Positions 1 through 56,234 of a DNA stretch of 64,000 nucleotides are shown piece by piece. The DNA is from Thermoproteota archaeon (GTDB lineage Archaea; Korarchaeota; JAOZGF01; JAOZFZ01), in contig JAOZFT010000004.1 in NCBI GenBank assembly GCA_027492035.1, positions 310,001 to 374,000 of the forward strand, read 5' to 3'. The position numbers were made by a program, and so were the translations under genes. A model generated the notes under the pieces. The model saw nothing but the letters and a program-made list of their open reading frames with translations. It was not told the origin of the DNA and searched no databases. Each line of letters begins with the position of its first letter. The first letter of the stretch is position 1.

Positions 1-778
1 CAGGTCATTTAGGAACCCTAGACCCCTACATAAAGGGGAGGGAAATCCTAACGTTACAGGGGTCTTACCTGTAGCCCTCGGTAAAGCCTGTAAAGTTGCT
101 GATTTATTGCTTAAAACAGAAAAGGAATATGTTGGAGTGATGAAGCTTCATCGAGATATTCCAGAAGAAAATGTACGTAATGTTTTTGAAGTGTTTAAAG
201 GGGAAATATATCAGGTTCCCCCCTCCAGGGCGGCTGTGAAAAGGAGTTTGCGCGTAAGAAAAATTCATGAACTGAAACTTTTACAGAAAAAGGGTAAATT
301 CGTTCTGTTTCAGGTGAACTGTCAATCAGGTACTTACGTAAGGAAACTCTGCGTCGATATCGGCAGGGTTTTGAAAGTAAGAGCTAACATGGTTAGTTTA
401 CGCAGAATAAAAACTGGAACATTTCACGAAGATCAATCCTTCACTTTACCACAAATAACCCTCGCTTATTATTTGTGGAAAACTAGGGGGGTAGAGGAGC
501 CGATAAGGGAAGTTGTTAAACCACTAGATTCAGTCCTTAACAATTTGTTACCTGCAATATTAATCAAAGACTCTGCAGTCGAACCTGTTAAGAACGGTTT
601 TCCGTTAATGATCCCAGGAATCATAGCTTTATCCAGTAAGGTTCCGAGAGGAGGCATTGTCTCTATTCAAAAATTAAACGGGGAAATAATTGCAGTTGCA
701 AAAACGGTTTTATCTTCTGAAGAAATTTACAAGAAGAAAAGGGGGGTTGCAGCGAAACCTATCAAAGTTCTTGTCTAA
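1..778 (+). CDS. cbf5: tRNA/rRNA pseudouridine synthase Cbf5 (5' truncated, intron-split)
   Basis: Catalytic subunit of H/ACA guide RNPs, which convert uridine to pseudouridine in rRNA; it works with Nop10, Gar1 and L7Ae. The 5' end lies outside the window. Bases 3-21 read GHLGTL plus the first base of an Asp codon in one frame, and the rest of the protein is in another frame from base 45. Removing 22-44 gives GHLGTLDPNVTGVLP, the TruB/Cbf5 catalytic motif with its Asp. Downstream are the RNA-binding part (SGTYVRKLCVDIG) and a C-terminal PUA domain (about the last 75 residues). Nop10 is elsewhere in the window (24.4 kb). The coding sequence is join(<3..21,45..778); the part from 107 alone would be a wrong call. 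Certain as family; the intron is inferred. Confidence 0.93.
   Translation, partial: RSFRNPRPLHKGEGNPNVTGVLPVALGKACKVADLLLKTEKEYVGVMKLHRDIPEENVRNVFEVFKGEIYQVPPSRAAVKRSLRVRKIHELKLLQKKGKFVLFQVNCQSGTYVRKLCVDIGRVLKVRANMVSLRRIKTGTFHEDQSFTLPQITLAYYLWKTRGVEEPIREVVKPLDSVLNNLLPAILIKDSAVEPVKNGFPLMIPGIIALSSKVPRGGIVSIQKLNGEIIAVAKTVLSSEEIYKKKRGVAAKPIKVLV
22..44 (+). other. Putative 23-nt BHB intron in cbf5 pre-mRNA
   Basis: Exon bases CCCT (16-19) pair with intron AGGG (39-42); 3-nt bulge AGA (20-22); inner hairpin CCCCT/AGGGG; second bulge AAA (43-45); outer pairing AGGA with TCCT. Cutting between the second and third base of each bulge removes 22-44 and gives the codon GAT for the catalytic Asp, restoring the frame. 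This is the geometry cut by the archaeal tRNA-splicing endonuclease. Splicing itself is not observed. Confidence 0.85.
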
Positions 779-858: not shown

Positions 859-962
859 GCCGGGGTACTCCAGCCAGGTAGGAGGCGGGCCTGGAGAAAT
901 TTCTTTTAAACAAAAAGCCCGTGGCTCTTGGAGCCTCGTGGGTTCAAATCCCACCCCCGGCG
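859..962 (+). tRNA. tRNA-Ser(GGA) with anticodon-loop intron
   Basis: Acceptor GCCGGGG/CCCCGGC with G73, long variable arm, T-arm GTGGG-TTCAAAT-CCCAC. Anticodon stem CGGGC/GCCCG encloses CTGGAG followed by extra bases; a 7-nt loop needs removal of about 19 nt after position 37. Outside the anticodon loop it is essentially identical to the intronless tRNA-Ser(GCU) at 37998. CCA is not encoded. Confidence 0.93.
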
Positions 963-5947: not shown

Positions 5948-6068
5948 GGGCCCGTGGCTTAGCCTGGCTGGAGCGCTTGCCTTATAACGACGTTTATCGT
6001 CTTTTGAAGGCGGCGTTTTCCTTTCATGAGAAAGCAAGAGGTCGCGGGTTCGAATCCCGCCGGGCCCA
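5948..6068 (+). tRNA. tRNA-Ile with long intron, apparent anticodon UAU
   Basis: Acceptor GGGCCCG/CGGGCCC, D-arm and T-arm match the tRNA-Ile(GAU) at 20206. Anticodon stem CTTGC/GCAAG encloses 53 nt starting CTTATAA. Keeping a 7-nt loop gives anticodon TAT and an intron of about 46 nt that contains two hairpins, so it could be two introns. If real, AUA is read by UAU rather than by a modified CAU. Confidence 0.8.
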
Positions 6069-13855: not shown

Positions 13856-13954
13856 GCCGCCGTAGCTCAGCCGGTAGAGCGAGGGACTTGTAATCCCTTG
13901 GTCGAGGGTTCAAAAACCTGTGTGTTTCCCAGGTTGGGAATCCCTCCGGCGGCT
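13856..13954 (+). tRNA. tRNA-Thr(UGU) with T-loop intron
   Basis: Acceptor GCCGCCG/CGGCGGC, U73, anticodon arm AGGGA-CTTGTAA-TCCCT. The T-stem GAGGG/CCCTC encloses 33 nt instead of 7, so about 26 nt must be removed; the insertion holds an AACCTG/CAGGTT hairpin. The anticodon loop itself is uninterrupted. Confidence 0.92.
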
Positions 13955-15405: not shown

Positions 15406-16938
15406 CTACAGGAACCTCTTCCTAAAAATTTGTTGATTACCCATGTTAACTAGTTGCACTATTCCAGGGGTAGGGTTAATGTTCATTTCAGCTTGGTAAA
15501 TTGTTTTACGTTGCCATGTTCCGGAGGCTATACATGTTATCCCATTCACTCTCTTCTCTCCATTTATGTGTAGATGTCCCGTTTGCACAATGTCAGGAGG
15601 GTCCTCTATCAAATGAAAATCAAAACTTTCAGGAGCTAATGGTACATTAGAGCCGTAAAGAGGAGATAAGTGCCGGCTTATTAACATTTCATGAATAGCT
15701 TCCTCCGGCTTATTCCTTTTTCTTCTGGGTAAAACTGTGTTCCAATCCTCCAAACTCTTTCCGTGGTAAATAAGTACTTTATAACCGTCAATTACTACTC
15801 TTGAAGGGTTACCTAAAGAATATATTCGTCTCTCCTCCTTTAAAGGTTCGATGTAGTGGTGAATAATTGATGGTTGAGGTTCAGAAAGCCTAGTAGCGTC
15901 GTGGTTCCCAGGAACAAAAATTATATCCAAGTAATTAGGCACTTTCTTCATATATTTTATGAAAAGGTCATACTGCTTACCTATATCCCTCTCCATTAAT
16001 TCATTTTCTTGCCCAGGGTAAACACCCACTCCATCCACTAAATCCCCAGCAATTATTAAATATTTGATTTTAGAAACAATCCTTTTCTCTTTTTCGTTTC
16101 CCCTTTTCAGATTTAACCATTCTAAAAATTTTTGAAATTCTTTCTGAAGAAACGCTTTGCTTCCTATGTGTAGATCAGAAATAAAGGCCATATAAATTTC
16201 CCTCTCAAAAGTTTTCGGTTTGGTTCTAGGAGGCCCTGGAAAATAAATTACTTCAGCATTCAACACCCCCTTCTTCCATACCCTACCCTTAACCCCTATC
16301 ACTTGGTCAGGTATAATATGTGCTGCCTCAGCCATGTTCTTGTTTACTATGACTTTAATTGAACCAGTTAAATCTTCAAGTTCCAAGATATAGTTCCCTT
16401 TTAGGCTCTTCCTTTTTGAAAAAACCATTCCCACAATGGTTACTTGTTTTCTCTCCTGTGAGCTGTATTTCTGTATGTCTTCTATGTCTTCAACTTCTCT
16501 CCCTTCAATTTTAGACTCAATTATTTTTCTTAACCTAATGTATCTGTTAATAAATAACCGAATAAAATCTGTTATTTTCTCTCCTCGGTTTATGTACCTA
16601 CTTGGGTCAAGCTCAACCTCTATTTTCCCATCCCAATCCTTAGCAGTCTCTTCTTGCAAAAAACCTTCAGGTAAAAATGTTTCAATTTCCTCTCTACCCT
16701 TTTCTTTCCTTTCTTCTCTGTTTTCCTTCTTCAAAAGGTTTAGAATCTTTTCCACCAGTTCTATCTTAACCACTACACCCCTACTCTGCGACTCCTGCAG
16801 TTTTTCTATGAAGAAATCAATTATAGACTTTAGGTTCATTTCGGAAAAATTTTTTAGGAGAGGTAATGCTTCAGAAGGGAGTAAGTACCCTTTTTCAGCA
16901 GTTTTAGCAAGTAATTCCTTGATCTCTTTGTTTTGCAT
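15406..16938 (-). CDS. polB: DNA polymerase D small subunit DP1
   Basis: About 510 residues. 3'-5' proofreading exonuclease subunit of archaeal family D polymerase. An OB-fold region (KQVTIVGMVFSKR...LEDLTGSIKVIV) precedes a calcineurin-like phosphoesterase with all metal motifs: FISDLHIGSKAF, AGDLVDGVGVYPGQ, VPGNHDATR, YHGKSLEDW, QTGHLHI. Start Met 16938 (MQNKEIKELL); the frame upstream runs through the tRNA-Leu gene and is not coding. Convergent with orc1. The large subunit DP2 is not in the window. Confidence 0.97.
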   Translation of the reverse strand: MQNKEIKELLAKTAEKGYLLPSEALPLLKNFSEMNLKSIIDFFIEKLQESQSRGVVVKIELVEKILNLLKKENREERKEKGREEIETFLPEGFLQEETAKDWDGKIEVELDPSRYINRGEKITDFIRLFINRYIRLRKIIESKIEGREVEDIEDIQKYSSQERKQVTIVGMVFSKRKSLKGNYILELEDLTGSIKVIVNKNMAEAAHIIPDQVIGVKGRVWKKGVLNAEVIYFPGPPRTKPKTFEREIYMAFISDLHIGSKAFLQKEFQKFLEWLNLKRGNEKEKRIVSKIKYLIIAGDLVDGVGVYPGQENELMERDIGKQYDLFIKYMKKVPNYLDIIFVPGNHDATRLSEPQPSIIHHYIEPLKEERRIYSLGNPSRVVIDGYKVLIYHGKSLEDWNTVLPRRKRNKPEEAIHEMLISRHLSPLYGSNVPLAPESFDFHLIEDPPDIVQTGHLHINGEKRVNGITCIASGTWQRKTIYQAEMNINPTPGIVQLVNMGNQQIFRKRFL

Positions 16939-16973
16939 TTCTTTTTCCGCTTTCCTCTGTTTAAAAGAGCTTA

Positions 16974-17066
16974 TGCGGGGGGAGGGATTTGAACCCTCGC
17001 AGGACTGAACCACCAGATCTCTAATCCTTGAGTCTGGCGCCTTTAACCTGGCTCGGCAACCCCCGC
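16974..17066 (-). tRNA. tRNA-Leu(CAA) with very short insertion
   Basis: Acceptor GCGGGGG/CCCCCGC, A73, variable arm of about 14 nt, T-arm GAGGG-TTCAAAT-CCCTC. Anticodon stem CCAGA/TCTGG encloses 15 nt (CTCAAGGATTAGAGA); a normal loop leaves an 8-nt insertion after position 37. If an intron, it is shorter than usual. Confidence 0.85.
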
Positions 17067-20205: not shown

Positions 20206-20299
<94 letters not shown>

Positions 20300-24292: not shown

Positions 24293-24390
24293 AGCCCTGG
24301 GAGGGATTCGAACCCTCGGCCTGCTGCTTTCTAGTTCGTTACGAGGATCGGCTTCTTGAATCAGCCGCTCTACCGCTAAGCTACCAGGGC
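24293..24390 (-). tRNA. tRNA-Thr(CGU) with two introns
   Basis: Acceptor GCCCTGG/CCAGGGC with U73, as in the other tRNA-Thr. A normal cloverleaf needs two deletions: about 15 nt between positions 30 and 31 in the anticodon stem and about 11 nt after position 37. The product has stem GCTGC/GCAGC and loop CTCGTAA and aligns position by position with tRNA-Thr(UGU). Reading it without the first deletion gives no plausible tRNA. Confidence 0.75.
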
Positions 24391-51684: not shown

Positions 51685-52746
51685 TTGAGAGAAAATCAGA
51701 AGAAATATGGTGTCACAAATAAAGAATTAGAGGAAATACTGAGTGAAAGCCGGGCGAAGCTGGTGGTTGTAGGTGTAGGAGGAGCAGGTGGAAACGTAGT
51801 TGACTTAATCAAAAAAAATAAACTGGAAGGGGTTGAAACAATCAGCATAAACACTGACGCACAAGACCTTCTTAAAATAAATGCTGACACTAAAATTTTG
51901 ATAGGGAAAAGAATAACTGGAGGTTTAGGAGCTGGCAGTGACCCAATTATTGGTGAAGCTGCGGTAAAGGAGGATGAAGAAGAAATAAGGGAGGCATTGG
52001 GAGGAGCAGACCTCACTTTCATAGTAGCTGGTTTAGGGGGTGGAACAGGCACAGGTGCAAGCCCTACAATTGCATCTTTAGCTAGGGAATCCGGTTCAGT
52101 TGTGATGACCATAGTTTTCTTCCCTTTCTCTGTAGAGGGAGCTAAAAGGCAGGAAATAGCTTTGAACAGTTTAAAAAACTTTTTAACAAATTCTGACACT
52201 TTCGTATTGATTCCCAACGACAAAATTCTTGAACTTAAACCAGGTATCTCCTTGAAAGAAGGCATCTACTACGCCAATAAAGCAGTGACAGACTTAATAA
52301 AAAACTTGGTTGAAATAATTGAAGCCCCCACCACCATAAATGTTGACTTCGCTGATTTAAGGACGGTGCTTGAAGAAGGGGGAATATCCACTTTTACTTC
52401 ACTTGAAATTAATGACTTTAATAAGTTAGAAGAAATAACTAAGCAAGTACTGATTAACCCCCTCATAGAAGTTGAAACCTCCGGAGGAAAAAAGGCGCTT
52501 TTATTTATTAAAACTTCGTCAAGTGTTGAAATAGAAAAAATCAGCAGTTTACTTGAAAGCGTAGTTTCCCAGCTTGATCCAAACGCCCAAGTAATATGGG
52601 GAGCAAACATCGTGGAAGATGACAGCTCCAAAACAAAAGTGTTCAGCATAATCACAGGCGTTAAACTTTTAAACATAAAGATTGAGGAGGTAGTTGCTAA
52701 ACCTAAACCTAGCATAGATTTAGGGATCGACCTTGAATCTCTTTAA
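51685..52746 (+). CDS. ftsZ: Cell division protein FtsZ
   Basis: 353 residues. Tubulin-like GTPase. VVGVGGAGGNVVDLIKK, AGLGGGTGTGASPTIA, ITGGLGAGSDP, NVDFADLRTVLEEGG. TTG start with GGTGG 8 nt upstream. Leads the FtsZ-SecE-Spt5-L11-L1-L10 run. Its presence excludes ESCRT-only crenarchaeal orders. Confidence 0.97.
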   Translation: MRENQKKYGVTNKELEEILSESRAKLVVVGVGGAGGNVVDLIKKNKLEGVETISINTDAQDLLKINADTKILIGKRITGGLGAGSDPIIGEAAVKEDEEEIREALGGADLTFIVAGLGGGTGTGASPTIASLARESGSVVMTIVFFPFSVEGAKRQEIALNSLKNFLTNSDTFVLIPNDKILELKPGISLKEGIYYANKAVTDLIKNLVEIIEAPTTINVDFADLRTVLEEGGISTFTSLEINDFNKLEEITKQVLINPLIEVETSGGKKALLFIKTSSSVEIEKISSLLESVVSQLDPNAQVIWGANIVEDDSSKTKVFSIITGVKLLNIKIEEVVAKPKPSIDLGIDLESL

Positions 52747-56147: not shown

Positions 56148-56234
56148 TGGGCCCGGCGGGATTTGAACCCGCGACCACCGGCTTTCCCCATTATTTAGAA
56201 GGCCGGTGCGCTATCCTGACTGCGCTACGAGCCC
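56148..56234 (-). tRNA. tRNA-Arg(UCU) with intron
   Basis: Acceptor GGGCTCG/CGGGCCC, A73, anticodon stem CCGGC/GCCGG enclosing 19 nt starting CTTCTAA, so a 12-nt intron. T-arm GCGGG-TTCAAAT-CCCGC. Confidence 0.93.

Follow-up and report, generated by a model that had tools for sequence, protein, structure and literature searches.

A probable bulge-helix-bulge intron in the catalytic codon of korarchaeal cbf5 and its occurrence among TACK and Asgard archaea

Analysis of a 64,000 nt stretch of a korarchaeal genome (the window, G000:C9:310001-374000) revealed a 23 nt interruption of cbf5 that is very probably an enzymatically spliced, inherited archaeal bulge-helix-bulge (BHB) intron of the pre-mRNA, the same site-specific intron as that of the Sulfolobales and Desulfurococcales. 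From position, frame, fold, covariation, phyletic spread, and the genes for EndA and RtcB, all read directly in the sequences, we infer actual cutting and ligation as well as descent from one insertion. The intron of crenarchaeal cbf5 pre-mRNA was reportedly described by Watanabe in 2002 and by Yoshinari in 2006. Its published length is 16-44 nt (Yokobori 2009, PMC2738675), and the only korarchaeote in that 2009 survey, Ca. Korarchaeum cryptofilum, was without it. A 2020 study gave the cbf5 mRNA of crenarchaeota as the only reported location of such an intron (PMC7714728), a 2023 review of nuclear origins held that nothing points to eukaryotic-like introns in the protein-coding RNA of archaea (PMC10732040), and a full-text literature search that covered neither subscription papers nor preprints returned no report of a cbf5 intron outside the Crenarchaeota. 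The kind of intron is already known (PMC2738675) and its spread beyond the Crenarchaeota is likely new; published accounts understate the spread of the cbf5 intron and probably also its age.

Position, frame, and fold of the intron

The host genome is a draft of 1.87 Mb in 42 contigs (93% complete). The window begins within cbf5, with the start of exon 1 lying 190 bases before it and the end of the gene at window base 778. The full gene was readable in L002 (2812-3779, with the ATG at L002:2812), and cbf5 is located 3' of ORFs resembling cytidylate kinase (cmk) and ribosomal protein L14e (rpl14e). The following features were identified in the window:

1-21 (+): 3' end of cbf5 exon 1, up to base 1 of the Asp codon (sequence reading)
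22-44 (+): predicted 23 nt BHB intron (restored frame and motif, BHB fold, site common to 115 distinct introns)
45-778 (+): cbf5 exon 2, with the rest of TruB_N, TruB_C_2, and PUA, stop codon at 776-778 (domain and equivalog matches)
9-14 (+): 5' strand of the outer helix, UUAGGA, with partner UCCUAA at 46-51, both exonic (fold)
16-19 (+): 5' strand of the 4 bp central helix, CCCU, with partner AGGG at 39-42 (fold, covariation)
20-22 (+): 5' bulge, AG^A, predicted cut at 21/22 (fold)
23-38 (+): inner intron hairpin, 23-27 with 34-38, loop 28-33 (fold)
39-42 (+): 3' strand of the central helix, AGGG, on the intron side (fold)
43-45 (+): 3' bulge, AA^A, predicted cut at 44/45, opposite A15 as a 1x3 loop (fold)
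15409-17013 (-): DNA polymerase D (PolD) small subunit (PF04042, PF00149)
51685-52743 (+): FtsZ (PF00091, PF12327)

Direct reading of the whole gene placed bases 22-44 (ACCCCTACATAAAGGGGAGGGAA) in the catalytic Asp codon (GA^T), which is split after its first base, as an earlier note on this DNA had claimed. With the 23 nt removed, the frame runs GGA ACC CTA G/AT CCT AAC GTT ACA and encodes GHLGTLDPNVTGVLP; the boundary is ambiguous by one base, since positions 22 and 45 are both A, and the product is the same either way. The unspliced frame meets a stop after 87 codons. The spliced gene gave an uninterrupted, conserved frame for a 314 aa protein with TruB_N, TruB_C_2, and PUA domains, matching the NCBIfam equivalog NF003280 Cbf5 at 350 bits (cut-off 242) and TIGR00425 Cbf5 at 318 bits (cut-off 238), so that the proposed restoration of frame and motif was borne out. 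Taken alone, the downstream ORF scored 290 bits and the upstream ORF 54 bits against NF003280.

Folding of a 60 nt precursor gave -19.3 kcal/mol (z = -2.9 vs mononucleotide shuffles). The central helix (16-19/39-42) had pairing probabilities of 0.96-0.99, the inner helix (23-27/34-38) 0.94-0.99, and the outer helix (9-14/46-51) 0.77-0.99. A 4 bp central helix together with an inner helix of 4 bp or more was formed by 2 shuffled 23-mers per 100,000 trials. The cuts predicted between bases 2 and 3 of each bulge fell at 21/22 and 44/45, exactly as the frame demands. As modeled, the RNA is a near-canonical BHB: the 4 bp central helix, the inner hairpin, and the 5' bulge of 3 nt (20-22) described in the earlier note were recovered, whereas the second bulge it had described (43-45) is part of a 1x3 internal loop with unpaired A15 opposite.

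By sequence comparison the host is a korarchaeote in the same phylum as a named one. Its phylum was represented by 28 other genomes; among them was G022, which shares an identical cbf5 locus with Candidatus Methanodesulfokora sp. KUA_Bin04 (NCBI class Korarchaeia). This agrees with the claim of a BHB cbf5 intron in an archaeon outside the Sulfolobales and Desulfurococcales, and both PolD and FtsZ, named as present in this genome, were found in the window by domain matches. A tRNA gene with long intron-like insertions was also observed just 3' of cbf5 (window 859-962, +; 46 bits with Rfam, missed by ARAGORN). Further Rfam-positive and ARAGORN-negative tRNA genes, probably with introns or unusual arms, were located at window 5948-6068 (+), 24293-24390 (-), and 56148-56234 (-). 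Two tRNA-like matches without acceptor stem (model positions 8-63), at window 13863-13921 (+) and 20229-20291 (+), could possibly reflect an intron in the acceptor stem, a split or permuted tRNA, or remnants.

Occurrence among archaea and imprint on the coding exons

Presence of the intron was scored from protein matches and reading of cbf5 loci, in sampled groups that exclude the Nitrososphaeria. In the Korarchaeota, 9 of 26 scorable genomes carried it and 17 were without it, providing a large natural experiment on loss; in the eight other korarchaeal carriers the introns occupy the same phosphodiester and vary in sequence and length. Introns were likewise read in 22 of 30 Thermoproteia loci, 10 of 30 Methanomethylicia loci, 46 of 79 from the Bathyarchaeia (class of G053), all seven from a second bathyarchaeal class, and 12 of 184 cbf5-positive Asgard genomes in an even draw, plus Sigynarchaeota G041. 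Named Asgard carriers include Jordarchaeia, Freyarchaeota, and Sigynarchaeota, and the carriers from the Thermofilaceae were L053 and L082. Approximately 56 Thermoproteia and another 6 Methanomethylicia matches fall outside these base-by-base counts, most of them truncated or stop-containing as is typical of the intron. Outside the TACK and Asgard archaea no introns were detected, all 26 loci read (Euryarchaeota, DPANN, and similar) being intact though their cbf5 motif is the same.

All 115 distinct introns, from at least five classes, lie in one gene and start after the same base, with lengths of 15-42 nt, some of them multiples of three, plus two longer ones. The idea of an isolated oddity was therefore not borne out. 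Bathyarchaeia, Methanomethylicia, Thermofilaceae, and some Asgard genomes use the same site, which is also that of the known crenarchaeal cbf5 intron. The two longest introns, of 76 nt in L187 and 67 nt in L248, exceed the published 16-44 nt (PMC2738675). Compared with the crenarchaeal cbf5 intron, the korarchaeal one shares the gene, the insertion point after base 1 of the same Asp codon, the size range, and a BHB with cut sites at bulge base 2/3, but its host has PolD and FtsZ, and the host EndA has its two domains fused in a single chain in place of two subunits. Archaeal tRNA and rRNA BHB introns resemble it in structure and in the enzymes presumed to act on them, EndA followed by RtcB, whereas the korarchaeal intron interrupts a protein-coding gene, in which coding BHB exon arms impose a constraint on synonymous codon positions.

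The central pairs link bases -6 to -3 of exon 1 to bases -6 to -3 of the intron, and all four were formed in 109 of the 115 introns. Complete helices averaged 70 and never exceeded 80 with shuffled introns, and there were no more than two when the partner was slid by 1-3 bases. The third base of the Thr codon, free at the protein level, pairs with the intron as C-G (82), U-A (22), or A-U (8), and the first base of the Leu codon as C-G (101) or U-A (12); sign tests on independent gene-tree pairs gave a median p = 0.016 for each of these two bases. The covariation score over 56 representatives was 0.456 vs 0.173 for shuffled introns (0/500 as high) and at most 0.145 for slid partners. In the outer helix, the pair counter returned one invariant pair. 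Codon choice was also skewed: the Leu codon ended in A in 106 of 120 intron-bearing genes vs 45 of 162 intact genes (Fisher 1e-25, kinship ignored), the Gly codon was GGG in 80 of 120 vs 27 of 162, and ACG for Thr never occurred in the 120 intron-bearing genes. From this codon skew together with the covariation, it follows that the coding exons bear the imprint of the BHB.

Splicing machinery and alternatives to splicing

The splicing endonuclease, which the earlier note had left to be sought in the rest of the genome, was identified as a single-copy EndA of 378 aa, a fused single chain with two EndA domains (matches at G000:C9:443178-444005, +), and RtcB was also present in one copy (G000:C9:453481-454788, -). 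Fused EndA occurred in 9/9 Korarchaeota where EndA was found; among the genomes checked, the Asgard and a majority of both the Bathyarchaeia and the Thermoproteia have two separate single-domain genes. Alignments placed the active-site Tyr, His, and Lys in the C-terminal domain. The C-terminal half was nearest to crenarchaeal catalytic subunits (4e-35 vs 2e-15 for the Archaeoglobus enzyme) and has Lys-Pro-Lys where Aeropyrum has Lys44-Pro45-Arg46 of the crenarchaea-specific loop. Two-subunit EndA has been tied to relaxed BHB cleavage and cbf5 introns (PMC2738675, PMC6379350), and within the loop the Lys gives relaxed specificity while Pro and Arg matter for activity (PMC6379350, PMC12397907). 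Judged by these alignments, the korarchaeal EndA looks like a beta-alpha fusion: it resembles the fused alpha2-type EndA of Archaeoglobus and Thermoplasma in being one chain with two EndA domains but differs in a crenarchaeal-like C-terminal half with the Lys-Pro-Lys loop signature.

The Lys-Pro-Lys/Arg signature was kept in 8/8 intron-bearing Korarchaeota tested and absent from 13/14 intronless ones; G015, the one exception, branches deepest within its intronless clade. Over 86 genomes it was present in 39/39 intron-bearing and 31/47 intronless genomes, and 13 of the 16 intronless genomes without it were korarchaeotes. The association is one-directional and not significant, with only one or two independent contrasts within the Korarchaeota, and is suggestive of the EndA specificity loop eroding after intron loss.

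In the proposed mechanism, the last codons of exon 1 would form the central helix with the 3' end of the intron and the outer helix with the start of exon 2, EndA would cut each bulge between bases 2 and 3, and RtcB would ligate the exons, making the catalytic Asp codon whole again and yielding the complete 314 aa pseudouridine synthase; the intron would have been present in the ancestor of the Korarchaeota and passed on by descent. Counting against this explanation are the 1x3 loop on the 3' side and a fused EndA type that the literature does not connect with cbf5 introns.

A draft assembly might be expected to contain assembly or sequencing artefacts, and the interruption could likewise mark a decaying pseudogene, but eight other Korarchaeota and many other archaea, in independent assemblies, carry insertions at the identical base whose structure covaries, and the remainder of cbf5 is intact and well conserved; on the evidence of these related loci this candidate was rejected, its probability being negligible. 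Programmed frameshifting or translational bypass of the 23 nt, a length that is not a multiple of three, would give an identical product in place of splicing. It is nevertheless highly improbable, as what is conserved is a BHB, with cut sites of the EndA type and a nearly always complete central helix, common to introns of many lengths (15-76 nt) including multiples of three, and spliced cbf5 cDNA has been reported in related Crenarchaeota (PMC2738675). Compatible with splicing is a regulatory switch, by which unspliced mRNA would yield an 87 aa truncated protein and limit Cbf5 output. The early stop in the unspliced frame fits such a role, and Yokobori et al. proposed negative regulation by the cbf5 introns of crenarchaea (PMC2738675), but intron length and its effect on the frame vary freely and many clades are without the intron, such that a switch appears unlikely.

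Age and origin of the intron site

Within the Korarchaeota, two state changes suffice to explain the distribution of the intron. The intron-bearing lineages are basal and lie outside two nested intronless clades, and the intron is therefore most simply ancestral in the phylum and was lost at least twice. Of the older origin or independent gain offered in the earlier note, the former is thus clearly supported within the Korarchaeota, while one insertion for all groups was left undecided by the deep Cbf5 tree. The wider Cbf5 tree required 25 state changes on 161 sequences vs a shuffled mean of 53. In the deep trees (FastTree, 277 sequences; IQ-TREE, 161) classes were not reliably recovered and the window's own clade was long-branched; this poor resolution makes one vs many origins undecidable from Cbf5 alone.

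One ancient insertion with many losses is favoured over several gains but unproven. Independent gains at a predisposed site, which would rival shared descent and not splicing, are a possibility to be taken seriously, if not the expected one. The Gly-Thr-Leu-Asp-Pro motif fixes GGN ACN YTN GAY CCN, holding self-complementary outer arms (GGNA/YCCN), and the protein sequence largely dictates G-C pairing of the outer helix; a short insertion would then need only to end in the exon complement to be a spliceable BHB. On the gene tree the Asgard introns were spread over four distinct clades, and their central helices were of three types (CACU, CUCU, and CUUU); the number of state changes on the Cbf5 tree also favors repeated gain. 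Against it stand the use of one phosphodiester of one gene by all 115 introns, the intact loci outside TACK and Asgard despite the same motif, and the basal position of intron lineages in the Korarchaeota, with a similar arrangement in several subclades of Bathyarchaeia and Thermoproteia. A single insertion before the TACK/Asgard split, with repeated losses and, in some lineages, subsequent decay of the EndA relaxed-specificity loop, is put forward tentatively. If true, the site would be among the oldest traceable intron positions of any protein-coding gene and the intron would have existed close to the archaeal ancestor of eukaryotes. Given the spread over Korarchaeota, Bathyarchaeia, Methanomethylicia, and several Asgard groups, reconciliation can be used to test how old a protein-coding intron is.

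Gene callers will split or truncate cbf5 in these phyla, so its annotations there call for checking. Other irregular cbf5 loci included ORFs of ~800-870 aa with a ~490 aa insertion near GTYVRKL in Asgard L175, L176, L178, L179, and L180 and in Bathyarchaeia L285. The L175 insertion resembles an intein, with LAGLIDADG-type motifs and the end ...VSSNC, and L285 combines a BHB intron and an insertion of the ~490 aa type in one gene. In the Asgard bins G119:C131 and G150:C57, a second cbf5 match starting from residue 71-72 was found beside an intact copy, possibly a contaminant from an intron-bearing relative or a genuine second gene.
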